A stretch of 9,979 nt of DNA from Candidatus Latescibacterota bacterium (lineage in GTDB: Bacteria > JAAXHH01 > JABIQT01), in the NCBI GenBank assembly GCA_018667995.1, contig JABIQT010000568.1, positions 1 through 9,979 of the forward strand. The letters are read 5' to 3'. Both the position numbers and the translations under genes were made by a program. The notes beneath the pieces were generated by a model. It had not been told where the DNA came from. It searched no databases and was given only the letters and a program-made list of their open reading frames with translations. Shown here one piece after another: positions 57 to 9,925 of the stretch (its first letter is position 1; each line of letters starts with the position of its first letter).

Positions 57-280
57 TTGTAAAGACTGCTACTTTCTTTAGAAGAAAGTACCACAAAGAA
101 TCGCACAGGTTACAAAGCGTTGATACTCTAGTTACTGGCAGATCCAGCCGACTGACACTTCCCCAGTACCCTAGCCCTCGCTGCGCGACCAGACATTTCC
201 GCTGCCCGAAAACGCCAATCGGCCACCCCACAGAGTCACCGGAAGATTGGCGAGTGGTCTACCGCTGAGTAATCTGTGCA
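57..280 (+). repeat. Structured dispersed repeat, copy A
   Basis: First of three copies of a roughly 220-bp element (others at 7541-7765 and, inverted, 9706-9925). In order it holds: an A+T-rich edge (TTGTAAAGACTGC, 57-69); a hairpin with 9-bp arms around a TAG loop (70-90); a linker containing CAAAGAATC; a long closing stem whose arms are 103-119 and 263-279 (GCACAGGTTAC with GTAATCTGTGC, one G-U pair, then a 3x3 internal loop and GCG/CGC); an inner stem TACTGG (133-138)/CCAGTA (163-168); a small hairpin TCGC-TGC-GCGA (178-188); and GGCCAC (221-226)/GTGGTC (254-259). The hairpin seen in the other copies between the last two stems is poorly formed here (about 191-217), so this copy may be partly decayed. 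It lies downstream of the HNH gene, antisense to it. It could be a non-coding RNA, a MITE-like mobile element, or both. No target-site duplication was seen. Confidence 0.8.
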
Positions 281-521
281 GGATAAGACACCGATCATCG
301 TAACTTGAATTGACATGATTTGGGACAAGCACGAGCAATTTCGTGTTGAACGATCGGCTCATACCACCTTGGGGACTGGTTCTAAAACAGCGCGAATTTG
401 TCTATTTCTCACAATCGTACTGGGATTCAACTGCGGACTAAATGACATTTGGGACCTTCCATTCTTAACTTCGAATCTACCAGCGACGATGCGGAATAAA
501 GAAACCGATTTAGTCGTTCAT
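281..521. other. Intergenic stretch with no recognised feature
   Basis: About 240 bp between repeat copy A and the stop codon of the HNH endonuclease. I see no ORF with a ribosome-binding site, no terminator hairpin with a T-run and no RNA gene. A plus-strand open frame begins at 315 but has no Shine-Dalgarno site, an unprotein-like composition, and runs into the antisense of the HNH gene. Confidence 0.6.
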
Positions 522-1439
522 TTAAAACTCCACCCTTGGCGGATCTCGAAAGACCTGACTGCGATGCCACCCGATAAACTTTATCGCCGGTACCAGAGCG
601 GGATTCTGCGGCGCCCGAAGGGGCTCTCCACAAAATCTTGTCATGGTATTATGTACCTGCGCACCGCCGTGAAGATCTTGAGACACGATAATCGTACGCG
701 CTTCAGTTAGCCCTATGGCCCCACGGTCTAGGGCTTTGTGATGGAGCGCGCACAATAGGATTCCATTTTCTGGATCATCTGGACCGCCGTGCGAATGCCA
801 GTGGATATGGGCCGCTTCCAAGGCTAAGTCATTCAATCCGAGCCGGCCGTCAAATCCACACACGGCACATCGGTGCTCATACAATCGAATGAGGTCCTCT
901 CGAAACTGGAGCGTCCGGGGTCTCCTGGCCATGACAAGCGGCTGCCACATCATACCTACCGCGTCCAGTAGGTCGTCATGGACCGATGTAGGAAAATGCT
1001 CCGCCAATATCTCTGAGATTATCTTGGAAGCAAACTCGGATTTGGCTCCTATCAATTCGAACACAGACTGTGAGAAACCGCCTCTTGCATTGACTTTTCT
1101 TAGAGCGCCGGCCGGGATGTTCCCGGACTTCGAAAAGTTAGGTGATTCGGCGATAGCCTGATCACTTTCTGGAATATCCCAGAAAGCACCATCAGACCTG
1201 AGACGCCAGAAAGGGTACTCGGGATGACCTACCTTCCGTTTGGGACCAAAATCAGATAGTAAAAGTTTTAACTCCCCCTCAATATCGTCATATCGGCGCA
1301 ACCGGGGTTCGCCACGCTGGACAGCGGCTATGGCCATCAACAACAGCAGTGGTTTATGGGGCGCACGCTGGCCACCGCGCTTCCAAACTGAAACGCTTTT
1401 TAGGACATTGAATAGACTGGATTGCTGCGATTTTGTCAT
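522..1439 (-). CDS. SBD-HNH restriction endonuclease (phosphorothioate-dependent, ScoMcrA-like)
   Basis: A 305-residue protein matching the architecture I know for phosphorothioated-DNA-binding restriction enzymes: an N-terminal sulfur-binding domain followed by an HNH nuclease. Family hallmarks of the first domain are APHKPLLLLMAI (26-37), HPEYPFWRLRSDG (72-84) and HFPTSVHDDLLDAVG (148-162). The nuclease begins with RFRE-like LQFREDLIRLYEHR, then CAVCG (C191, C194), AAHIHW (H211, likely general base), N225, and LCALHH (C230, H233, H234). The C-terminus, WHRSQVFRDPPR (291-302), is typical, so the gene is full length. Such type IV enzymes cut DNA carrying backbone sulfur made by Dnd systems in invading DNA; no dnd gene is present here. 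I chose the ATG at 1439, preceded by GGTGG. An in-frame start at 1511 would add 24 unsupported residues. It is read away from the leader/hairpin unit at 1652. A general HNH/McrA enzyme without sulfur specificity is the alternative. Confidence 0.85.
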   Translation of the reverse strand: MTKSQQSSLFNVLKSVSVWKRGGQRAPHKPLLLLMAIAAVQRGEPRLRRYDDIEGELKLLLSDFGPKRKVGHPEYPFWRLRSDGAFWDIPESDQAIAESPNFSKSGNIPAGALRKVNARGGFSQSVFELIGAKSEFASKIISEILAEHFPTSVHDDLLDAVGMMWQPLVMARRPRTLQFREDLIRLYEHRCAVCGFDGRLGLNDLALEAAHIHWHSHGGPDDPENGILLCALHHKALDRGAIGLTEARTIIVSQDLHGGAQVHNTMTRFCGEPLRAPQNPALVPAIKFIGWHRSQVFRDPPRVEF

Positions 1440-1651
1440 TATCCACCGGGTATTCAACATGGGTGCCGGTATGTGGTGATAGGCCCAATTAAGCACGAAT
1501 TGAGGCCACACGGATTTTCACTGGGAATCAAAGTCACGACTGTTATACCGTCTCAGAATCGCCGCCGTTTTTCCGATACGTCAAAACATGGCCGTCTCGC
1601 ACTGAGTCGGTCTCAAGTCAGACTATTTTAGACCAATGGTGTTTGATAAAC
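1440..1651. promoter_or_regulatory. Intergenic region between diverging units
   Basis: About 210 bp between the HNH start codon (minus strand) and the Shine-Dalgarno site of the leader ORF (plus strand). By position it should hold promoters for both directions. I could not pick a convincing pair of -35 and -10 boxes. The best plus-strand candidate, CTGAGT (1602-1607) with TATTTT (1624-1629) at 16-bp spacing, is weak. Confidence 0.35.
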
Positions 1652-1667
1652 AAGGAGTTCTGTATCT

Positions 1668-1730
1668 ATGAGAGATGGGCGACAACAAAGTTCGTCCCAG
1701 CTCCAGCCCTGCATCCACCCCATAGTCTAA
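1668..1730 (+). CDS. Putative 20-residue leader peptide
   Basis: A short ORF of 20 codons plus TAA, beginning ATG AGA GAT and rich in Gln and Ser (QQSSSQLQ), ending in CIHPIV. It has a good Shine-Dalgarno site, AAGGAG (1652-1657), 10 nt before the ATG. Its stop codon (1728-1730) lies inside the left arm of the hairpin at 1721-1749, which holds the ribosome-binding site and start codon of the following gene. That placement is the main reason to believe it is translated: a ribosome reaching the stop would open the hairpin and could re-initiate 16 nt further on. There are no runs of a single regulatory amino acid, so classical amino-acid attenuation is not indicated. It could be a chance ORF. 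No homology can be claimed at this length. Confidence 0.5.
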   Translation: MRDGRQQSSSQLQPCIHPIV

Positions 1731-1749
1731 TGGGAGGAATTAGACTATG
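1721..1749 (+). promoter_or_regulatory. Hairpin with RBS in the loop and AUG in the stem
   Basis: A perfect 11-bp inverted repeat, CATAGTCTAAT (1721-1731) and ATTAGACTATG (1739-1749), separated by a 7-nt loop, GGGAGGA (1732-1738). The loop is the Shine-Dalgarno site of the next gene, and the last three bases of the right arm are its ATG start codon. In mRNA this would pair the AUG while leaving the Shine-Dalgarno site in a tight loop. The left arm contains the stop codon of the leader ORF, a layout that fits translational coupling or attenuation. As duplex DNA the same palindrome could be an operator for a dimeric repressor. The sequence shows the symmetry directly; the mechanism is inference. 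Confidence 0.7.
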
Positions 1750-2220
1750 TCAATTGAGTGTTGGGGTTTCGTGTCGAGTCATGTTATATCCGGTTTGGGT
1801 AGCATCGAGCCGCTGCGAAATCGTGTTGCCGACTACCGCACACCGTCGGAGACGGAAGAGTTTGACATGCATTGCATGCGCTTTTGGTACTGGGAAGACG
1901 AGACGATGATAGTCGTGCTTCTCGATGTATTACCGTTCTATGATTTACAGGAGTTGGTCTTCACGCGAGAGGGCAGTCTCAACGGCCTCCCGAGAATAGT
2001 GCAGGAATGGGACGAAGACATGGGCTGGAGATCCGAAGATGATATATATCTGGACCTGGACGAGCTTTCTGCTGCCCTTATATTGTTTCTGCAGATGGAG
2101 CTGTCAGAGGATACCTGCTATGGGATTCAGCACTTGCAGCAGGCTATAACGTTCTGCAAGGATACTGGTGTAAAATTAATGGTACTTCATGAATATGATA
2201 TGGGGTCTGATGTAGATTGA
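1747..2220 (+). CDS. Acidic protein of unknown function
   Basis: A 157-residue protein I do not recognise. It is markedly acidic, with clusters such as EWDEDMGWRSEDD and DLDELS in the second half, several Trp and Tyr residues, and hydrophobic strands (MIVVLLDVLPFYDL, LSAALILFLQM) that suggest a small globular alpha/beta fold. There is no signal peptide or clear membrane helix. The start at 1747 is set by GGGAGGA eight nucleotides upstream, inside the loop of the hairpin at 1721-1749. It is therefore probably under translational control through the 20-codon leader ORF. The next gene on the same strand starts 103 bp later and may share the transcript. Acidic small proteins are common among immunity and inhibitor proteins, but nothing here proves that role. 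Reality of the gene is well supported; function is unknown. Confidence 0.7.
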   Translation: MSIECWGFVSSHVISGLGSIEPLRNRVADYRTPSETEEFDMHCMRFWYWEDETMIVVLLDVLPFYDLQELVFTREGSLNGLPRIVQEWDEDMGWRSEDDIYLDLDELSAALILFLQMELSEDTCYGIQHLQQAITFCKDTGVKLMVLHEYDMGSDVD

Positions 2221-2323
2221 TCAAACATACCACCAGCTGCTGGCGCAAGTCTCCTTGGAGCGTAAGGCCCAAGGGCTACCGGTCAGCATAATACCTATGG
2301 CTTGTACGGCCGGAGGAGGCAAC

Positions 2324-2866
2324 ATGAAATATAAAGATGACCAGGAGATCATTGCCGCACTCATTTCCCACCTGGGGCTGGTCAAGTACAAAAGCAGGAC
2401 CCCACCACCCATTGCCAGAGCCATTGGTGTCGGCGAGGAAGACGTAACGAGGGTACTGCATGGCTACCCCGGGATCTTCAGAAAGTCAAATCGGAAAAAA
2501 GCGGATACCGAGGAACACTATTATACACTTCAGATTCGCTATGCCATACGAGCGGACCAATACAAGAAGAACTATACCTCGGCCGAAGGCACGCCCCTCG
2601 ACGTGGATCACGTCATGCGGCTGCTGGAGTACGTAAGCCACCATGCATCCCGGGAGCAGGAGCTGCATCTCACGCAGAACCAGCTGCAACAGGAAAGGGA
2701 ATTGACGCACCGTGACCGGGAACTCACCAGGGAAATGATGAAGCAGGACCTTGATATTGCCAAAGCCTCGGTTGAAAGCGCAAACAAGGCCTCTTCGAAG
2801 GCATACAAAGCCGCGTTCCTGGCGGCGGTGGCAGCGGTGGCGACCGCAATTCTCGAAGTATGGTAA
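2324..2866 (+). CDS. Winged-helix, coiled-coil, tail-anchored membrane protein
   Basis: A 180-residue protein with three visible parts. Residues about 5-75 resemble a winged helix: DQEIIAALISHLG, then PPIARAIGVGEEDVTRVL, then GYPGIFRKS leading to the strand pair HYYTLQIRYA. Residues about 105-160 are very rich in Glu, Gln, Arg and Lys in heptad-like order (EQELHLTQNQLQQEREL), predicting a coiled coil and so oligomerisation. Residues about 162-180 form a hydrophobic C-terminal segment (AAFLAAVAAVATAIL) ending EVW, a likely tail anchor in the inner membrane. The start at 2324 is fixed by GGAGGAGG four nucleotides upstream; an upstream in-frame TTG (2255) and ATG (2297) lack such a site. It follows the acidic protein by 103 bp. 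DNA binding, membrane signalling or a defence effector are all possible; I know no named family. Confidence 0.75.
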   Translation: MKYKDDQEIIAALISHLGLVKYKSRTPPPIARAIGVGEEDVTRVLHGYPGIFRKSNRKKADTEEHYYTLQIRYAIRADQYKKNYTSAEGTPLDVDHVMRLLEYVSHHASREQELHLTQNQLQQERELTHRDRELTREMMKQDLDIAKASVESANKASSKAYKAAFLAAVAAVATAILEVW

Positions 2867-2892
2867 TGTGTGATCTCAATGGGGCACACATT
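2865..2892. other. Inverted repeat between converging genes
   Basis: A perfect 8-bp inverted repeat, AATGTGTG (2865-2872) and CACACATT (2885-2892), with a 12-nt loop. It overlaps the TAA stop of the membrane-protein gene and lies 49 bp before the stop of the opposing rhamnonate-dehydratase-like gene. Its position between converging genes suggests a transcription end, but neither strand has a T-run after it and the stem is A+T-rich. Intrinsic termination is therefore unproven. Confidence 0.35.
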
Positions 2893-2940
2893 CTGCCATT
2901 ATCCAGATGTTCGTTCCAATGTCTTCATCCATGGACTCGT

Positions 2941-4101
2941 TTAACTACTGACACACCGCTCCTGCAACCATTCCCTGGTCACCTCGATTCCAAATCCAGG
3001 CGCGTCACTCGGCGTCAAATATCCGTCGTCTATCACGGCAGTCCCAGGCAGATACACCATTTCTTCGAGAGGTACACCCGGTGGCGACACGCCCTGGGAT
3101 CGTTCCCCCCAGCATGCGGAAGACATCGCATATACGAGATGCTGGCCGTAGGGATTGTTCATAGACGCATGGGGAATAACCGAAAGTCCAGCAGCCTCCG
3201 CCATCTGGCAGATCTTTACCCCTGCAGTTATACCGCCAGCCCAAAGCACGTCCGGCTGCAGAATGTCTACGTAGTTCTCGGTGATAGCATGATTAAACGT
3301 CGTCGGTAAATACCAGTGCTCGCCAGAAGCCAACGTCTGCCAGGGCAGACGCCTTCGAATGGCGCCGTAGCAAGGATAATTTTCCGGTGTCACATAGTCT
3401 TCCAGCCATTTGAGCCGGTATGGTCGCAGCGTTTCAGCGAGCCTCACAGTATACTCCTCATCCATGGATAGCCAGCAGTCCAGCATGAGTTCAGCGCTGT
3501 CACCTACCAATTCTCGGGTGTTACTGACCAGTTCTTCGTTCTTACGCAGTCCCTCAGCCCCGTCCTCAGGTCCCCAGGGCGTGAATATCTTGGTGGCGTT
3601 GAAGCCCAGTTCCAGGTACCACTCCGTGTCATATCCCGTGGCATAGCAGAAAATGCGGTCCTTCTGCGGGCCCCCCAACAGTTCATATACAGGTTTCTCC
3701 AGGATCTTGCCCTTGAGATCCCACAGTGCTGTATCCACGGCGCTGATGGCATAGCTGGCCAGGCCTGTTCCACCGTATGGCGCAGTCAGGCGAACCATCA
3801 TGTCCCAGGCGCGACCGGTAGCCATGGCGGACTCGCCCACCAGATTGGGCGCGAAGTGATCGTTTATGACGGCCACCACAGGAGATCCATAGATAGTGAT
3901 TCCAAGTCCCCAGGTCCCGTCCTCCGCTGTTGCCACACACGCCACGCCCTGCCACGGTGGCTGTCCGGCCGACCTCAATCGCTGGTACCGATCTTTGGGC
4001 TTTCTCATGGTAACAGCCTGACTGATACTGGGACGGCGAGGTTTCGTCTTCGGATGTGGCGTGAAGTCCACCTCGAATGCCTCGATCGATGTAATCTTCA
4101 T
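2941..4101 (-). CDS. Rhamnonate-dehydratase-like enolase-superfamily enzyme
   Basis: A 386-residue mandelate-racemase/muconate-lactonizing family protein, full length for the family. It is closest, from memory of E. coli L-rhamnonate dehydratase (RhmD), to that subgroup: shared signatures are YATG (153-156), the TPWGPEDG segment (174-181), LMLDCWLSMDEEY (205-217), LKWLED (230-235), SGEH (259-262), LQPDVLWAGG (281-290), IPHAS (309-313) and APGFGIEV (367-374). Expected metal ligands are D208, E234 and E261; the likely catalytic dyad is H311 with D284. The reaction would be Mg-dependent dehydration of a sugar acid to a 2-keto-3-deoxy acid in the cytoplasm. The N-terminal capping region, which sets substrate choice, differs from E. 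coli RhmD, so another deoxy or acid sugar is possible. The start at 4101 has GAGG nine nucleotides upstream. It stands alone on the minus strand; a mutarotase and SDR lie about 4-5 kb away. Confidence 0.85.
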   Translation of the reverse strand: MKITSIEAFEVDFTPHPKTKPRRPSISQAVTMRKPKDRYQRLRSAGQPPWQGVACVATAEDGTWGLGITIYGSPVVAVINDHFAPNLVGESAMATGRAWDMMVRLTAPYGGTGLASYAISAVDTALWDLKGKILEKPVYELLGGPQKDRIFCYATGYDTEWYLELGFNATKIFTPWGPEDGAEGLRKNEELVSNTRELVGDSAELMLDCWLSMDEEYTVRLAETLRPYRLKWLEDYVTPENYPCYGAIRRRLPWQTLASGEHWYLPTTFNHAITENYVDILQPDVLWAGGITAGVKICQMAEAAGLSVIPHASMNNPYGQHLVYAMSSACWGERSQGVSPPGVPLEEMVYLPGTAVIDDGYLTPSDAPGFGIEVTREWLQERCVSS

Positions 4102-4841
4102 AGTTTTGCCTCACAAATTCCCCGGTTCTTGCCTCAGCGAAATCGCATGTCTAGAACGTATGTTCGCCAAGCAGGTGCGTCTATGAAAACGAAGAAATTG
4201 CACTCCATGAATATAGCTCCCAGATTGTGGTAGGCCGTGCATTGGGTGAGAGACCAACGTGATTATCGGTCGACCGCAACCTTCCAACAAATACCGACTC
4301 TCTTCGCATTAAACTCCAAATAGACTGCGGCATGAGGGCAGGAATCCAGCGATTGACCTCCCCGCGATAGGTGCATCGCGTGTTACCGCATAGTAAAACA
4401 TGCCCGCAAAATACGGCGATTCTCCTATTCCTTTCGTGCCGTACTGCCTCCTGTTTGGGTAAATTTCATCCTTCCGACCCGCATTTATCAACACATTCTC
4501 TCCCTACAATATTCAGCTTCGACTCCCCATATCCGTCACCCCGATTGTGGTCCGCGGAACAGCTCAGGTGTCGAATTACCCGGTTCGTCCGTGGCAATAA
4601 CAATAATAGTGGCTATTCTACAAACGCCGTTTCCTCCAATACACGGGTGCTCACAATGTACCACCTTAGTTTCAGCTCTGGTCAGCGTACTTCTCGCAGT
4701 CCACCATGCCCTTGCAATACAAACCTGTTGACTTACCTTACCGCCGGCATAACTTGCGCTGTCTTCCAGCTATATTCGGGCACTGTCGCAGGAGGCCCCT
4801 CTTGACTAATAACCACACCTTCGCGAAATGGTGGCATACAG
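4102..4841. other. Long gene-free region between diverging genes
   Basis: About 740 bp between the starts of the dehydratase-like gene (minus) and the first PhyH gene (plus). The plus strand is pyrimidine-rich between about 4420 and 4550. A 144-codon plus-strand frame (4371-4805) begins with GTG, lacks a Shine-Dalgarno site, is full of Ser, Thr and Cys, and resembles no protein. I saw no copy of the dispersed repeat, no tRNA and no strong hairpin. TTGACT occurs at 4728-4733 and 4802-4807 without a convincing -10 box at proper spacing. Both flanking genes should be promoted from here. A decayed gene is possible but not demonstrable by eye. Confidence 0.5.
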
Positions 4842-5678
4842 ATGAAACATAATTTAGACGCGCAACAGTTGAGCTTCTTCGAAACTTTCGGATACCTGGG
4901 CTTCCCCGGACTAATGGCAGATCGTGTGCAGGAGATCATCAGTGATTTCGAGGAAGTCTGGGCAAGGCACGGCGGTGGGCACAACGGTCAGGCGCATGAC
5001 GGCACGGCTCGGTCTTGCATCGCACAATTCATAGATCTGCACGAACGGCTGTCCACACTGCTTGACGATGAAAGAATCAGGGGCATCGCAACGAGCCTCG
5101 TCGGTGACGATTTCAATTACATGGGCAGCGACGGCAATTACTATGCGGGGGACACCGGATGGCACTCTGACGGTTGGCACCCGGAACAACGACATATCAA
5201 AATCGCTTTCTACCTGGATACCTTGACCCGGGAGACGGGCTGTCTGCGGGTGATACCCGGAAGTCACCAGATCAACGATACGTTTGGAAAGACCTTACAG
5301 GAACACATCCGCGGAAGCGATTCTGCCTGGGGAATCTCGGGCGAGGATGTGCCGGCGGTGGCACTGGAGACGGCCCCGGGCGACATTGTCTGTTTCAATC
5401 ACAATACCAAGCACGCGGCTTTTGGCGGTAGTGAGCGGCGACGCATGTTTACCATGAATCTCTGTCAACGCTATCCGGAAGATCGCCTCAGCGACCTGCG
5501 CGAGTACATCGGTGGTGGCGCCCGATTCTGGGTTGAGGAGGGATATGGCCAGGCCATGATCCGTACCGCGTCTCAAAAACGCCTCAGGCACTTGGAACAA
5601 GTGATGGAAAATGACGATCACCTGCCGGAACTGACGCGAAAGGCCAAACTAAAGATGACGGAGCCATCCCGGGGATAA
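4842..5678 (+). CDS. PhyH-family Fe(II)/2-oxoglutarate dioxygenase 1
   Basis: A 278-residue phytanoyl-CoA-dioxygenase-like protein. The N-terminus (QQLSFFETFGYLGFPGL) is the usual PhyH opening. The metal triad is visible: H108 and D110 in GWHSDGWH, with H191 (or H187) in FNHNTKHAAFGG as the distal ligand. R200 or R201 just after is the expected 2-oxoglutarate carboxylate contact. RVIPGSH (136-142) is the standard turn between strands. These enzymes use O2 and 2-oxoglutarate to hydroxylate small substrates; ectoine, phytanoyl-CoA and natural-product intermediates are known examples, so the substrate cannot be told here. The start at 4842 has only GGTGG upstream. It is followed after 87 bp by a second PhyH gene on the same strand, plausibly one operon. 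Its ETGCLRVIPGSH motif differs from the LGPTE-type motif of the two neighbours, so it belongs to a different subgroup rather than being a recent duplicate. Confidence 0.85.
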   Translation: MKHNLDAQQLSFFETFGYLGFPGLMADRVQEIISDFEEVWARHGGGHNGQAHDGTARSCIAQFIDLHERLSTLLDDERIRGIATSLVGDDFNYMGSDGNYYAGDTGWHSDGWHPEQRHIKIAFYLDTLTRETGCLRVIPGSHQINDTFGKTLQEHIRGSDSAWGISGEDVPAVALETAPGDIVCFNHNTKHAAFGGSERRRMFTMNLCQRYPEDRLSDLREYIGGGARFWVEEGYGQAMIRTASQKRLRHLEQVMENDDHLPELTRKAKLKMTEPSRG

Positions 5679-5765
5679 CTACTCACCACTGGGTGTGCTG
5701 CAACGCTTCATCGAGAAACCAATGGATATGTCGTAAACTCCACCAACGGTTTCAGGAGGATGTTA

Positions 5766-6548
5766 ATGAACACGCAGGAAGAACAGCTCACGCAATTTCA
5801 CAAGGACGGATATTTGATCCTGCCAGAAGCATTATCCGAGACGTTCGTATCGGAGCTGCGGCGTGGTGTTGAGGCATCATTCTCAACGCCAGACGAAGAA
5901 TCCGAGATGTATGGTATGCAGGAGCTCTGGCGACCGAAGATGTTCGAACACGGCGAGGAATTCGAGGCATTGGTGGATCATGGCGACACCGTAGACCTGG
6001 TCGAGGCCATTTTGGGAGATGACTGCCACCTGATTGCCATGAGTGCTTTGCGAACTGGAACAGGCACAGAGATATCAACCTGGCACGCCGATGAGACGGT
6101 CCGCTTTCCGCGACCACTGGGCGTTCCACTCGATCCCCGTATCGAGGTGCCCTGTTTCATCGTTAACCTGAACTACTATCTCTGCGATGTGGATCAAGAG
6201 CTGGGGCCCACCGAATTCGTTCCGGGCAGTCACAGGAGCGGGCGCCAACCACAGGAAAGCGATAATGATGGAAACGGAAATCCAGCCTACGAGGGGCGCC
6301 AGGCGGTAAGTGCAGTAGGCAAAGCGGGCACCGCAGTAATGTGGCATGACCAGACGTGGCATAGAGGTGGCATTAACCGGTCAAATGGCCGCTATCGATG
6401 GGTTCAGCAGGCCCCTTACGGTCGGCGATACATTGCCCAACGGTTTTACCCGTTCGTGAACTATCACATGCCGGAGGATATCCTGGCCCGGGCCAATCCA
6501 CGCCGAAAACGACTTCTCGGAGTCCATGGACCAGGGGCGTACGGTTGA
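5766..6548 (+). CDS. PhyH-family Fe(II)/2-oxoglutarate dioxygenase 2
   Basis: A 260-residue PhyH-like oxygenase. It opens with LTQFHKDGYLILPEAL and carries H107 and D109 in TWHADE, LGPTEFVPGSH (147-157), and the distal H199 in QTWHRGG. An Arg about ten residues later (R205, R209 or R211) is the candidate 2-oxoglutarate contact. A Gly/Asn/Asp-rich insert, SDNDGNGNPAYEG, sits between the PGSH turn and the distal strand and may form part of a substrate lid. The start at 5766 is chosen because AGGAGG (5754-5759) lies six nucleotides upstream; an ATG at 5760 would abut that site and is unlikely. The C-terminus is rich in Arg and Gly. It is probably co-transcribed with the first PhyH gene. Its TGA stop touches the stop of the opposing third PhyH gene. 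Substrate unknown. Confidence 0.85.
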   Translation: MNTQEEQLTQFHKDGYLILPEALSETFVSELRRGVEASFSTPDEESEMYGMQELWRPKMFEHGEEFEALVDHGDTVDLVEAILGDDCHLIAMSALRTGTGTEISTWHADETVRFPRPLGVPLDPRIEVPCFIVNLNYYLCDVDQELGPTEFVPGSHRSGRQPQESDNDGNGNPAYEGRQAVSAVGKAGTAVMWHDQTWHRGGINRSNGRYRWVQQAPYGRRYIAQRFYPFVNYHMPEDILARANPRRKRLLGVHGPGAYG

Positions 6549-6557
6549 TCATGCCCC
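6534..6557. terminator. Hairpin at abutting stop codons, possible bidirectional terminator
   Basis: The stop codons of the two converging PhyH genes are adjacent and form the palindrome TGATCA (6546-6551). They sit in the loop and 3' arm of an inverted repeat with arms GGGGCGT (6534-6540) and ATGCCCC (6551-6557), seven pairs including one G-T, and a 10-nt loop. A bidirectional transcription end here would make sense, since neither gene has room for its own terminator. There is no T-run on either side, so an intrinsic terminator is not proven. Confidence 0.35.
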
Positions 6558-7379
6558 ACCGAATCTACGAAAACCTTCAGGTTTCCACAGGATGGGATGG
6601 CCCGGAGGCCACTCCCGTCCATCGTTGATCGCATCGAAATCCGAAGTCTTGTCACAGAGCCAATAAAACATACGAGCGGCATCGTACCATTCCCGGAATT
6701 GCACGCGGAATGTGGGACCGTCCATGGCATAGTGTGGACTATGATCGTGCCCAAAATCAAAATTGGGATCTGCGATCCAGTCTCGTGACGGCGGTGACAT
6801 ACGCCAGTAGCAGTATTTGAGCATATTTCGAAGGCCCGTCGCCGTGGAGCGACCCCGTCGATGCCAGACGTTGTATGCCGTAATGAAAATCGAGCCGGCA
6901 GGCGCACTTGTCTGTACCGCACCACGCACTCGGTCGTAATGTGCCATGTAGTGCTGCAGGGCAAATATGAAATGGGATCCCGGTAGTACCTCCGTGGGCC
7001 CCAGTTCAAGTGGCGTGTCCTGAGGATAGTAGAACACCTGTAGATGATTGACTTCATATCCCATGCGCGACCCGCCGTCCCGGTGCCAACTTTGAGCGTC
7101 CGCCGGGCATTCGACTCGATGATTGGCCATGCCTGTGGGTAGCGCGAAGTTGGCGCCAAGCAGGGCCCGCACGGCATCTGCTGCTTGCGGATTGAGCAGG
7201 ACGTGCTCGATGAAGCGATCTTCCTGGAGCAGATCGGTGGGTTCATGGGTTTCGAGGAATTGGGTTACCCACTGGTTGATCTCGTCCGGTACGACGGATT
7301 GATACATCAGGTAGCCGTTTTTGCAGAAGGACAGGACATCTTCGTCGTTCATGGTGTTGACTACTTGGGATGAGTCCAT
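6549..7379 (-). CDS. PhyH-family Fe(II)/2-oxoglutarate dioxygenase 3
   Basis: A 276-residue PhyH-like oxygenase on the minus strand. It shows the family opening (VLSFCKNGYLMYQSVVP), H99 and D101 in SWHRDGG, LELGPTEVLPGSH (124-136), and the distal ligand H173 in VWHRRGRS, with R184 as the likely 2-oxoglutarate contact. The last third contains many aromatic residues (REWYDAARMFYWLCD), which could line a substrate pocket. The LGPTE-PGSH motif is shared with the second PhyH gene, though the rest differs strongly, so they are relatives rather than recent copies. The ATG at 7379 was chosen; GAGAG upstream is a weak ribosome-binding site. The in-frame ATG at 7352 has none. A TATAAT lies 47 bp upstream of the start. 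The gene converges on the second PhyH gene with no intervening base. Substrate unknown. Confidence 0.85.
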   Translation of the reverse strand: MDSSQVVNTMNDEDVLSFCKNGYLMYQSVVPDEINQWVTQFLETHEPTDLLQEDRFIEHVLLNPQAADAVRALLGANFALPTGMANHRVECPADAQSWHRDGGSRMGYEVNHLQVFYYPQDTPLELGPTEVLPGSHFIFALQHYMAHYDRVRGAVQTSAPAGSIFITAYNVWHRRGRSTATGLRNMLKYCYWRMSPPSRDWIADPNFDFGHDHSPHYAMDGPTFRVQFREWYDAARMFYWLCDKTSDFDAINDGREWPPGHPILWKPEGFRRFGGA

Positions 7380-7425
7380 TGGCGTCTCTCGCTTTAATTT
7401 TTCGGACCGTTGAGTATTGTTTTAT

Positions 7426-7431
7426 ATTATA
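7426..7431 (-). promoter_or_regulatory. Candidate -10 box for PhyH 3
   Basis: On the minus strand this reads TATAAT, an exact -10 consensus, in an A+T-rich tract 47 bp before the ATG at 7379. No good -35 hexamer stands at 16-18 bp; the nearest candidate, TTCGAC (7452-7457), is 20 bp away. The call rests on the -10 match and position only. Confidence 0.4.
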
Positions 7432-7496
7432 GAAGATATGTGATTACATTGGTCGAAATCAGACTGATCTGCTGGTGTGTATCGCTGTGCGACGTG

Positions 7497-7525
7497 TTGA
7501 TACTATGTTGTATGGGTTGTATCTT
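7497..7525 (+). promoter_or_regulatory. Candidate sigma-70-type promoter reading into repeat copy B
   Basis: TTGATA (7497-7502), a 17-bp spacer, and TATCTT (7520-7525): five of six and four of six consensus matches. Transcription would begin near 7532, just before repeat copy B, and run through it towards the small gene at 7912. If real, copy B is transcribed in the orientation in which its wobble pairs form. Hexamer matches of this quality are not rare in A+T-rich DNA. Confidence 0.35.
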
Positions 7526-7540
7526 CTGATATATAGAGTC

Positions 7541-7765
7541 GTTTAGAGATTGCCACTTTCTTTAGAAGAAAGTGGCGCAAAGAATCGCACGGATTACAAG
7601 GCGTTGGTGGAGTGACGTCTGGTAGTATGAGACGACTTAGGATCACCTCCACTCCCCGCTCCTCGCTGCGCGACCGGAGGACTTCGCTTTGCGATGTCCT
7701 CAAATGGCCACCCCGCATGGCCTCCTGATAGTGCGGCAATGGTTTATCGCTGAGTAATCTGTGCA
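7541..7765 (+). repeat. Structured dispersed repeat, copy B
   Basis: The best-folded copy of the three-copy element. The edge hairpin has 11-bp arms, GCCACTTTCTT (7552-7562) and AAGAAAGTGGC (7566-7576), around a TAG loop. The closing stem pairs 7587-7597 with 7754-7764 (one G-U), then GCG (7601-7603) with CGC (7748-7750). Inside are: GTGGAG-TGA (7607-7615) with TCA-C-CTCCAC (7643-7652), extended by CGTCT (7616-7620)/AGACG (7630-7634); TCGC-TGC-GCGA (7663-7673); GAGGAC-T-TCGC-TTT-GCGA-T-GTCCTC (7677-7701), with a central T-T mismatch; and GGCCA (7706-7710)/TGGTT (7740-7744), enclosing CCGCA (7713-7717)/TGCGG (7732-7736). It lies 147 bp upstream of the gene at 7912 in the same orientation. It could be a cis-acting leader, a free RNA or a non-autonomous mobile element. 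Confidence 0.85.
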
Positions 7766-7911
7766 TCAAGGAGTGAGGTACTGAATCGCAGCGGTATGTA
7801 CCAGATGTTATTATCACCTTCGGAATCGAACACATTGCCTAACACGGGACCGTAAACCAACTACTTTCCGCTGACAGAGCAGCACGACATTTTCGTATTG
7901 GAGACCATAGT

Positions 7912-8280
7912 ATGCAACAACGACTTATATCTGAGAGTGAACAATGTATCGCTTACCATAGTGCGGGGGAGCTGACGGAGGAACATCTGCGTGAACTTCT
8001 CAGCAGTGTGAAATCAGGCGGCCCCATGCGGGACCTTTTGTATCTTCAGGCCAGCGGCTCCTCGGTGACCAGCCAGGTGGTCGGCGTCTCTCTTGTACAG
8101 AATGGAGAGGTCGTATCCGACCTCCCAGAGCCAGAGGGATGGCCTTACGGCACGGTTCTCGAAGCGATTCGGGATGGTTGGCGCGTGATCTCGTTTCCAA
8201 ACCAGGCCCTGATGCTTGACGAATCCCGAGCGCTGGGATTGGGGTGCGAGTTTGTCCTGGAAAAATGGTCGTCCGCATAG
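7912..8280 (+). CDS. Small protein of unknown function
   Basis: A 122-residue soluble protein I cannot assign. The C-terminal half looks like a conserved small domain: EGWPYGTVLEAIRDGWRVISFPN, then ALMLDESRALGLGCEFVLEKW. There are no membrane segments, no cysteine pairs suggesting metal binding, and no known catalytic motif. The start is set by TTGGAG, with the last G eight nucleotides before the ATG. It is the only plus-strand gene between repeat copies B and C, lies 147 bp after copy B in the same orientation, and converges on the SDR gene with a 49-bp gap. Good ribosome-binding site, normal composition and the ordered C-terminal motif make it a real gene; a link to the neighbouring sugar genes is only positional. 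Confidence 0.7.
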   Translation: MQQRLISESEQCIAYHSAGELTEEHLRELLSSVKSGGPMRDLLYLQASGSSVTSQVVGVSLVQNGEVVSDLPEPEGWPYGTVLEAIRDGWRVISFPNQALMLDESRALGLGCEFVLEKWSSA

Positions 8281-8329
8281 CGTATTTCACCAACCCCCTG
8301 TTTTCATCCCAGGGCAGGGCATCGGACGG

Positions 8330-9127
8330 TTATTCCCAACTGGCGATGGGTGCCTGGATGCCCTCTTCAATCCACAGGAACCTACCGGTCACACCGGCGC
8401 TCTCCTCGCCCACCAGTCGCAGAACTAGATCTGCCGCTTTGCCCGGCGGATCCCCGCCGGTTTCGCCTACCCACTTTACCCATGCCCGATAGCCGTCCCC
8501 TTCCGCTCCCAACTTATCAGCTTCGTCACGAATAGCGGCCCACATGTCAGTCTTTACCTCTCCGGGATGAATTACGTTAGCAGTCACCCCACTATCCTGA
8601 AGCTCCGCCGCCAGATGCCTGGTGAACTGGTTTAAAGCCACCTTACTGGTTCCATAGGCGCTGTTCAATGGTCCTGGCGGATGCAGCGCGGCCGCAGAGG
8701 AAACGTTTACGATCCTTCCGAAACCGGCATCAACCATGTCCCCCATAAACGCCCGACACATCAAATAGGGAGCGATCGTATTGATGGTGATGGTCTCTAT
8801 CCACCGATCCGGATCACTGTCCCCTATCAACTGAATGGGCCCGAAGACCCCGGCCGCGTTTATGAGTATATCGATGCGACCGATCTGGTCTGACACAGTT
8901 TCCTTGACAAGGGCAACGCCGGATTGCGTACTCAAATCTGCTGGGATCGCGCAGGCACTCCCCCCGGCCTCAACGATGAGTCGCTCAGTTTCTGCCAGTT
9001 GATCAGCAGTCCTGGCAATGAGAGCGACCTTCACGCCGTGTGACGCGAGACGGCATGCGACCTCGCGACCCACACCTCGCCCGGCCCCCGTCACCACAGC
9101 CGCTTTTCCTTTTAGTGTCGACGACAT
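8330..9127 (-). CDS. Short-chain dehydrogenase/reductase (classical SDR)
   Basis: A 265-residue classical SDR with all hallmarks: cofactor loop TGAGRGVG (13-20), D64 in PADLS, NAAG (90-93), N116, catalytic S144 in NVSS, and Y158/K162 in YGTSK; HPGEVKTDM (187-195) is the usual segment after the active site. R39 in LIART at the end of the second strand suggests NADP(H), though not firmly. It would oxidise an alcohol or reduce a ketone in the cytoplasm. It lies three nucleotides after the mutarotase stop on the same strand, with its Shine-Dalgarno site (GGAAGGAAGG) inside the end of that gene, so the two form a tight operon. By context it may be an L-rhamnose (or related sugar) 1-dehydrogenase. 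A role on another substrate, as with many FabG-like SDRs, is equally possible. Confidence 0.85.
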   Translation of the reverse strand: MSSTLKGKAAVVTGAGRGVGREVACRLASHGVKVALIARTADQLAETERLIVEAGGSACAIPADLSTQSGVALVKETVSDQIGRIDILINAAGVFGPIQLIGDSDPDRWIETITINTIAPYLMCRAFMGDMVDAGFGRIVNVSSAAALHPPGPLNSAYGTSKVALNQFTRHLAAELQDSGVTANVIHPGEVKTDMWAAIRDEADKLGAEGDGYRAWVKWVGETGGDPPGKAADLVLRLVGEESAGVTGRFLWIEEGIQAPIASWE

Positions 9128-9130
9128 ACG

Positions 9131-9460
9131 CTATCCTTCCTTCCCGGCCCGCGTCTCGCAGCGGAATATCTCACGAAGATCTCCAGAATCCACGATGCCA
9201 TCGTCCCGAAACTCCATATAAGGCCCCATCACCTCTGCCCACTTGTCGTGGATCTCCGAATGCCATAGCCGGTCCCAGGCCTCTTCGTCGACAATCTCCG
9301 AAAACAGGAATAGCACCGGATCCTGTTCGAAAGTAGTGATGGTCGCAATGCCACACTTCTCGATCTCCGCCACCAGCTCCGGCCAGATCTCACTATGATG
9401 CCGCGTATATTCTGCCAAAGCACCGGGCTTGAGTCGCATGGTGAAAGCTTTTCGCAACAT
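9131..9460 (-). CDS. rhaM: L-rhamnose mutarotase
   Basis: A 109-residue protein closely following E. coli RhaM: MLRKAFTMRLKPGA at the start, EYTRHHSEIWPEL (17-29) with H22 and Y18 in the expected active-site positions, and a C-terminal EIFRCE near the family's end. It interconverts alpha and beta L-rhamnose, easing use by a following enzyme. The E. coli WW pair before YM is here a single Trp (KWAEVM), a variation that might alter sugar preference. The ATG at 9460 is preferred: it matches the family start and has AAAGG six nucleotides upstream. The open frame reaches 9607 but the extra 49 residues are not family-like. It is the first gene of an operon with the SDR. Upstream lie a strong hairpin (9638-9658) and repeat copy C. 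Confidence 0.9.
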   Translation of the reverse strand: MLRKAFTMRLKPGALAEYTRHHSEIWPELVAEIEKCGIATITTFEQDPVLFLFSEIVDEEAWDRLWHSEIHDKWAEVMGPYMEFRDDGIVDSGDLREIFRCETRAGKEG

Positions 9461-9630
9461 GAGTAGCCTTTCATATTTGAGATGAATTTGCCGTAAAGCG
9501 CAACGATCCACAGATACCGGATGTTTCTGTAGACGGATGGCTCCAGGAAACACATGAGAGAAACAGACCCGATCTATCAATATTTGTCCCGGCACCACAA
9601 ATGCCAAGTTCCGCAGCGCCGCCCAACCCT

Positions 9631-9669
9631 GACGGAGGTACCGGGCGCCGCCCGGTACGACGCACCGTC
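9631..9669. other. Strong G+C-rich hairpin upstream of rhaM
   Basis: A perfect 9-bp inverted repeat, GTACCGGGC (9638-9646) and GCCCGGTAC (9650-9658), around a 3-nt loop. It is enclosed by a second stem, GACGG (9631-9635) with CCGTC (9665-9669). It lies about 180 bp upstream of rhaM, between that gene and repeat copy C. There is no T-run on either strand, so a simple intrinsic terminator is not shown. It could be a leader structure, the end of a transcript that starts at copy C, or a protein-binding palindrome. Confidence 0.55.
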
Positions 9670-9705
9670 TTAAGCCACTATCAATCCAACATCAGTAGTT
9701 CCCAC

Positions 9706-9925
9706 TGCACAGTTTACTCAGCGATAGACCGCCGAAAACTTACCGCCGCCAACCCGGGGTGGCCGTTTGGCGATTGCGAAGCAAACGCCCTGTCGCGAAG
9801 CGAGGGGACTGGCCGGGCGGCGTTCATAAGTCACTTCAATTCCCCAGCCGAACATCCAGTCACGCATTGTAAACTGTGCGATTCTTTGCGCTACTTTCTT
9901 CTAAAGAAAGGAGCATTCCTTATAG
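9706..9925 (-). repeat. Structured dispersed repeat, copy C (inverted)
   Basis: Third copy, on the minus strand. Edge: CTATAAGGAATGC (9925-9913), then a hairpin with 7-bp arms CTTTCTT/AAGAAAG (9894-9910). Closing stem: 9863-9879 with 9707-9723, fully Watson-Crick. Its seventh base is changed in both arms relative to the other copies, so pairing is kept. Inner stems: GACTGG (9807-9812)/CCAGTC (9856-9861); TCGC-TTC-GCGA (9793-9803); GGCG-T-TTGC-TTC-GCAA-T-CGCC (9769-9789), repeating the T-T mismatch of copy B with different stem sequence; and GGCC (9761-9764)/GGTC (9727-9730). It lies about 245 bp upstream of rhaM and in the same orientation, so it could be part of the leader of that operon. 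Confidence 0.85.

Follow-up and report, generated by a model that had tools for sequence, protein, structure and literature searches.

Three copies of a dispersed intergenic repeat of about 220 bp are present in the window analysed here, that is, the whole stretch of 9,979 nucleotides, which is one entire contig (C976, 9979 bases) of the draft genome of a Candidatus Latescibacterota bacterium (6.06 Mb, 85% complete). On balance, these copies are probably non-autonomous elements without coding capacity that resemble miniature inverted-repeat transposable elements (MITEs) and are moved, or maintained, as a folded single strand. The observations that count towards this reading are the dispersal of the copies, their boundaries, the conservation and covariation of their fold, their decay, their patchy distribution, and a head module that also occurs in MITE-like elements from other phyla. 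From these we infer mobilisation in trans, via a single-stranded intermediate and by recognition of a hairpin and its linker. The three copies had been located in an initial annotation of the sequence and were all confirmed, with A and C showing 70-71% identity to copy B. Their coordinates and parts are given below, with scores from covariance model (CM) R1.

Copy A, 57-281, + strand: model-matched core 66-281; CM R1 194 bits; hairpin P7 lost.
Copy A, 67-93, + strand: hairpin P1, core CTTTCTTT-AG-AAGAAAG.
Copy A, 94-102, + strand: linker CAAAGAATC, unpaired; unchanged in copies A-E, with the form CAAAGAA(G/T)C in the same-order genome G001.
Copy A, 103-113, + strand: 5' strand of closing stem P2, GCACAGGTTAC; partner 269-279; covarying.
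Copy A, 269-279, + strand: 3' strand of closing stem P2, GTAATCTGTGC; last element base A280.
Copy B, 7541-7766, + strand: core 7550-7766; CM R1 220 bits; folding z-score -4.58; set in a divergent gap between a PhyH gene (- strand) and an unknown open reading frame (ORF, + strand).
Copy B, 7552-7576, + strand: hairpin P1, GCCACTTTCTT-TAG-AAGAAAGTGGC.
Copy B, 7578-7586, + strand: linker CAAAGAATC.
Copy B, 7587-7597, + strand: 5' strand of closing stem P2; partner 7754-7764.
Copy B, 7663-7673, + strand: small hairpin P6, TCGC-TGC-GCGA; identical in copies A-F except for the loop.
Copy B, 7677-7701, + strand: hairpin P7, with a T-T mismatch; strongest covariation among the body stems.
Copy B, 7706-7714, + strand: conserved motif GGCCACCCC; G001 form GCCC(A/G)CCCC.
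Copy B, 7754-7764, + strand: 3' strand of closing stem P2; last element base A7765.
Copy C (inverted), 9705-9925, - strand: core 9705-9916; CM R1 204 bits.
Copy C, 9890-9914, - strand: hairpin P1.
Copy C, 9869-9879, - strand: 5' strand of closing stem P2, GCACAGTTTAC; partner 9707-9717.
Copy C, 9769-9789, - strand: P7, GGCG-T-TTGC/GCAA-T-CGCC.
Copy C, 9707-9717, - strand: 3' strand of closing stem P2, GTAAACTGTGC.

The copies share a common plan, which comprises a polypyrimidine/polypurine hairpin of about 25 nt (P1), the linker CAAAGAA(T/G)C, the closing stem P2 (about 11 bp) and a multi-branched body; intact copies further contain a short P3 (GCG/CGC), the invariant P6 (A-F), the variable P7 and the motif GGCCACCCC. 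As the initial annotation had described, the closing stem (GCACNGNTTAC/GTAANCTGTGC) has a G-T pair at position 7 in copy A and at position 5 in copy B, with a matched change to T-A in copy C, and P7 keeps its T-T mismatch in both GGAC-T-TCGC/GCGA-T-GTCC (B) and the corresponding stem of C. The P7 of copies E and F (found elsewhere in the host genome, see below) also has T-T and that of copy D has G-T, the distance to the loop being 6 bp rather than 4. Another inner stem that had been proposed is present in each copy, but the TACTGG/CCAGTA pairing of copy A is out of register: its 5' strand lies about 10 alignment columns downstream of GTGGAG in B and GACTGG in C, so that it does not form one stem with those two, and this piece of evidence is weaker than had been claimed.

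Covariation was assessed against shuffled and slid controls, a test that is not phylogeny-aware. In the alignment of the seven copies A-G, which was not fitted to the structure, 94.6% of the cells in the core structure were paired compared with 85.2% in the shuffles, and 26 cells were changed on both sides compared with 8.8 ± 2.1 in the shuffles and 1-6 in the slid controls. The 14-row alignment, which was fitted to the structure and is therefore biased towards it, had 93.4% of cells paired and 82 changed on both sides (24.5 ± 4.3 in the shuffles, 6-21 in the slid controls), and in its closing stem 97.8% of cells were paired and 9 of the 11 pairs showed both-side changes. The differences among copies thus preserve pairing beyond chance in both tests, in agreement with the earlier claim; covariation was found, and the stems were not broken in most of the other copies. 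Folding z-scores of single sequences were uneven (-4.6 for B, -2.3 for A and -0.9 for C). Overall, it is well supported that a multi-branched fold of about 215 nt has been selected, or at least maintained.

G-U cells numbered 16 and A-C cells 6 (p ~0.03, the cells not being independent), and the closing stem alone had 11 and 2, respectively, which modestly favours one strand as the one that folds. The argument from G-T pairs in the initial annotation therefore gains weak support, but a G-T-tolerant fold of single-stranded DNA would show the same signal, and so the excess does not separate RNA from single-stranded DNA. Of the proposed selection on a folded RNA, the keeping of the fold stands, whereas the folded molecule is only a possible functional RNA.

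A covariance model built from copies A-G was used to search the host and other genomes, as had been suggested, and it recovered the family at full length in the host and in G001, with E-values from 1e-13 to 1e-64 for all full-length matches. There are eight copies in the host (A-H) and five in G001 (matched along the entire model, E 1e-13 to 4e-18), thirteen in total. Copies D and E lie 340 bp apart on C439 and copy F on C493, all found by BLAST and the hairpin pattern, which also revealed a solo hairpin without a body at C493:4610-4640. Copy G on C979, which came from a survey of hairpin variants, has the hairpin ACTTTTCTTTAAAAGAAAAGT, the linker CAAAAGAAGC and the closing stem GTACTTTCCC/GGGAAAGTAC, and the eighth copy, H on C944, was detected by the covariance model as a decayed element with a ruined hairpin. 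An apparent extra copy at C926:1-83 was rejected, because a neighbouring contig simply overlaps copy A there. The nine hairpin cores in the host assembly are all explained, by the three window copies, three full copies elsewhere, this contig-overlap duplicate, the solo hairpin and the decayed H; none of them adjoins a gene-carrying version, and no gene-carrying (autonomous) relative was found in this 85% complete assembly. Decay is visible in copy A, which has lost P7, and in copy H (hairpin and linker decayed in 1 of 13 copies).

The spread of the family is patchy. Covariance-model matches occurred in 4 of the 115 related and distant genomes, and only head-sized ones came from G013 and from G335, a Lake Baikal genome; among 16 genomes of the phylum, only the host (G000) and G001 carry the family, with traces in G013. 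The window body has no copy in the viral contigs, plasmids or phages searched. A first pattern survey of 335 genomes with the motif CAAARGAA, which does not cover the plain CAAAGAA form, gave true hairpin matches in G159, G219, G037, G310, G070 and host C979, the remainder being chance. With a loose linker pattern, the 30 viral matches and most of the 115 genome matches listed were likewise rejected as chance occurrences without a hairpin.

To define the unit, flanks were aligned at the ends of the covariance-model matches. Identity among copies was 0.6 in the 10 nt before the hairpin and 0.24-0.36 farther upstream, and past the 3' end, which is sharp (GC|A), it was 0.32 and lower immediately. 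This loss of identity on both sides indicates a sharp-ended unit of about 225 bp that has no upstream promoter in common. The copies are intergenic, on either strand, and the gaps that hold them are divergent, convergent or tandem (gene names beyond Pfam matches are readings of the translations): copy A lies in a convergent gap between a sigma-factor-like gene and an HNH gene, copies D and E in a convergent gap between a peptidase-like and a cobalamin adenosyltransferase-like gene, and copy G in the smpB/PhyH gap, just downstream of smpB. The family is thus dispersed and non-coding, with sharp ends and unrelated flanks, as MITEs are.

The head module, meaning the hairpin with its linker, was also found in other bacteria. 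Pattern scans matched it at about a dozen loci in the Latescibacterota genome Baikal-deep-G205 and also in NC_groundwater_1462, and on a Buchananbacteria contig a closing stem GCAAGCTTTACAAAATC/GATTTTGTAGGCTTGC follows immediately after CAAAGAAGC. A generalised hairpin query run on plasmids, itself built on the shared features, gave many matches in replicons of Caballeronia, Paraburkholderia and Ilyobacter. In Ilyobacter polytropus pILYOP01 (NC_014633; L299/L301-L366), the same head (GTTACTTTCTTTGCTTGCCCAAAGAAAGTAACCAAAGAA) stands at the start of elements with paired terminal inverted repeats (AAATTACTGAATTTATCC; 11 pairs, 375-531 bp), as in CTTTCTTTGCTTGCCCAAAGAAAGTAACCAAAGAA followed by CCCCTAAAAAATACC...GGTATTTTTTAAAGGGG; these have no coding space, and none is long enough for a transposase gene. 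In Caballeronia NK8, seven places carry palindromes of about 560 bp with a head at each end, the inverted heads being 461-463 bp apart, and one such palindrome is present in C. zhejiangensis and absent at the matching C. insecticola locus (L318, L330, L331). In Ilyobacter and Caballeronia, at least, the head is thus part of MITE-like elements.

Several further features of the head-bearing loci were observed. The Ilyobacter elements have end modules of at least four kinds, exchanged between elements, and orthologous Caballeronia elements differ by swapped whole internal blocks. In Baikal-deep-G205, the head precedes two body types, some of which form facing inverted pairs (L180 ~7085-7400; L082, L124, L131, L083), and L180 terminates in another head of the form CCTACTTTTCTTGCTCGTGCAAGAAAAGTAGG-CAAAAGAAGCAC. 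Heads of the form CCCACTTTCTTTTCGC(C/G)AAAAGAAAGTGGGGCAAAGAAAAGGC with strongly folding bodies occur in G066 (L332, L333); this genome encodes five Y1 transposases, and in the flanks examined no head has one of their genes next to it. A repeat-like palindrome of another kind, TGCGCTTCTTTG...CAAAGAAGCGCA, whose stem is formed by the linker, occurs at L094 3527 (Sedimentisphaerales) and L164 4921.

The head has been seen in Latescibacterota, Patescibacteria (Buchananbacteria), Fusobacteriota and Pseudomonadota as well as several further families. We suggest only tentatively that it marks a widespread superfamily of bacterial mobile elements, consisting of the hairpin ACTTTCTTT...AAAGAAAGT, an unpaired CAAAGAA and a closing stem, in which bodies may be freely replaced while the fold stays, and whose movement as a folded single strand might depend on an enzyme class distinct from both RAYT and the known insertion sequence (IS) transposases.

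If the window family is mobile, an enzyme supplied in trans would recognise, on a single strand, both the head (hairpin and linker) and the closed fold, and would insert new copies elsewhere; that strand could be an RNA copy, or else DNA that is displaced or belongs to the lagging strand. Selection on copies that are still spreading would keep the pairing as the body sequence drifts, and copies no longer spreading would decay. Several results weigh against this reading. No terminal inverted repeats are recognisable at the ends of the window copies, no consistent target-site duplication was found beside them, and neither a transposition event nor an empty site was seen for the window family itself. 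The link to the Ilyobacter and Caballeronia elements consists of the head module only, the bodies not being alignable, and may thus reflect either homology or a shared recognition module. As for the enzyme, no partner was found: the single PF01797 (Y1 transposase) match of the host has no copy in the flanks examined, and no Y1 transposase was found in Ilyobacter pILYOP01 or two Caballeronia replicons (main chromosomes not searched).

G001 has no PF01797 match either, and Y1/RAYT was not supported as the partner enzyme, the neighbourhood test giving no association. The host match itself (E 1e-27) ends an 813-aa open frame on G000:C899 (L254, ~1-1893) whose start reads as replication-initiator-type; this frame is possibly a fusion of a replication initiator and a Y1 transposase.

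The repeat was compared with known systems. HEARO and retron families are present in Rfam; the comparison with Rfam that had been recommended gave no matching family, with no match at E <= 1 to Rfam 15 in the window and none on the copies in 11 further loci. Like HEARO/omega RNA, IS110 bridge RNA and retron RNA, the fold is about 200 nt long, multi-branched and probably in mobile DNA; unlike these, it has no Rfam match, and the window contains no nuclease, recombinase or reverse transcriptase gene next to it; no reverse transcriptase was found among the window ORFs examined by Pfam (the whole genome was not searched for reverse transcriptase). Non-autonomous derivatives of IS200/IS605 likewise would be mobilised as a folded single strand that is strand-specific and has a hairpin close to one end, whereas the window copies have no second subterminal hairpin, and no Y1 transposase association was detected. 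The MITE-like ERIC, YPAL, Correia/NEMIS and RU elements and the stem-loop families of PMC2267715 are also short, non-coding, intergenic, dispersed and folding, without a mobilising enzyme of their own; in contrast, the window copies lack clear terminal inverted repeats, and they fold into a multi-branched structure that has a conserved hairpin-linker head and a covarying long-range closing stem. Repetitive extragenic palindromic (REP) sequences and REPINs with their RAYT (TnpA-REP) are hairpin-based and non-autonomous, with many intergenic copies (PMC3116915, PMC3733652), sometimes in inverted pairs as in the Caballeronia and Ilyobacter elements, but the window family is far longer, with neither a GTAG/CGTC tag by the hairpin nor a Y1 gene beside its copies. 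By definition, a REP is a palindrome of 20-40 bp that has a conserved tetranucleotide, GTAG or CGTC, on one side (PMC3733652); membership was rejected, because the hairpins of copies A-E carry GTAC, GTGG, GTAG, GTTG and GGAG, respectively, at their 3' foot, and nothing is conserved in the bases 5' of the hairpin. The Bordetella BRE repeat (about 90 bp, tandem; PMC3110155) is not obviously related, as judged by its description and not by sequence, and a rho-independent terminator was rejected, since the hairpin has no T-run on either strand. No printed sequence of these repeats was found in the literature covered, which is incomplete, and they may have been noticed in single genomes.

Among other explanations, a multi-copy functional RNA, whose intact copies would be transcribed and whose fold would serve the host, for instance as a small RNA or a binding platform, appears rather unlikely. 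It would account for the strong covariation on the fold of one strand, the conserved unpaired motifs CAAAGAA and GGCCACCCC, the mild excess of G-U over A-C (16:6; closing stem 11:2) and the exclusively intergenic location. However, the copies share no promoter-sized upstream block, they occur on both strands and in gaps of all types (divergent, convergent, tandem), some are decayed, and the family is missing from most genomes of the order; the head, moreover, recurs in plainly MITE-like elements, and a single-stranded DNA fold would explain the G-T signal equally well. A MITE-like element copied through its fold, which the initial annotation had named as its alternative, is judged the better explanation. 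It is very improbable that the copies are instead DNA or mRNA elements exapted by the host, such as 3' processing or stability hairpins at gene ends, as proposed for ERIC and REP: copies A, D and E between convergent gene ends and copy G just downstream of smpB would fit such a role, but copy B lies in a divergent gap, orientations vary, and neither strand has a T-run after the hairpin.

Matched changes could also arise in a dispersed repeat under no present selection on its fold, through quasi-palindrome correction (template switching in hairpins at replication) together with exchange between copies; bacteria are known to mutate through template switching at hairpins, which produces such changes. 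This explanation, which we consider unlikely, deserves weight because the solo hairpin on C493 is a perfect palindrome (GAATGCTCCTTTCTTTAGAAGAAAGGAGCATTC) flanked by duplicated sequence: about 70 bp beside it are repeated beyond copy F, at the contig end (L019, 4610-4640, 4740-5030). The block swaps between orthologous Caballeronia elements point the same way. Quasi-palindrome correction acts mainly on short hairpins, whereas the arms of the closing stem, with its matched changes in 9 of 11 pairs (97.8% paired), are about 165 bases apart, and the G-U pairs and T-T mismatch that persist in changed stems would have been removed by correction. Long-range matched changes and retained mismatches thus indicate that template switching is not the whole answer.

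Beyond the repeats, the window carries three consecutive PhyH dioxygenase genes (4842-7379) near a mandelate racemase-like gene, a short-chain dehydrogenase and rhaM, and this PhyH-rich run is likely a catabolic cluster. Two ORFs, at 1747-2220 (157 aa) and 2255-2866 (203 aa), have no Pfam match; the latter has a coiled-coil look and a hydrophobic C-terminus.

Bacteria commonly carry dispersed structured repeats, most of them with short single hairpins, whereas the family described here has a multi-branched fold of about 215 nt that is kept by matched changes. Its hairpin and CAAAGAA linker, recurring across phyla on unrelated bodies, offer a handle for finding the enzyme that moves or uses the element. 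If the element is mobile, it would be a parasite of machinery not yet known; if it acts as RNA, it would be a sizeable uncatalogued structured RNA.

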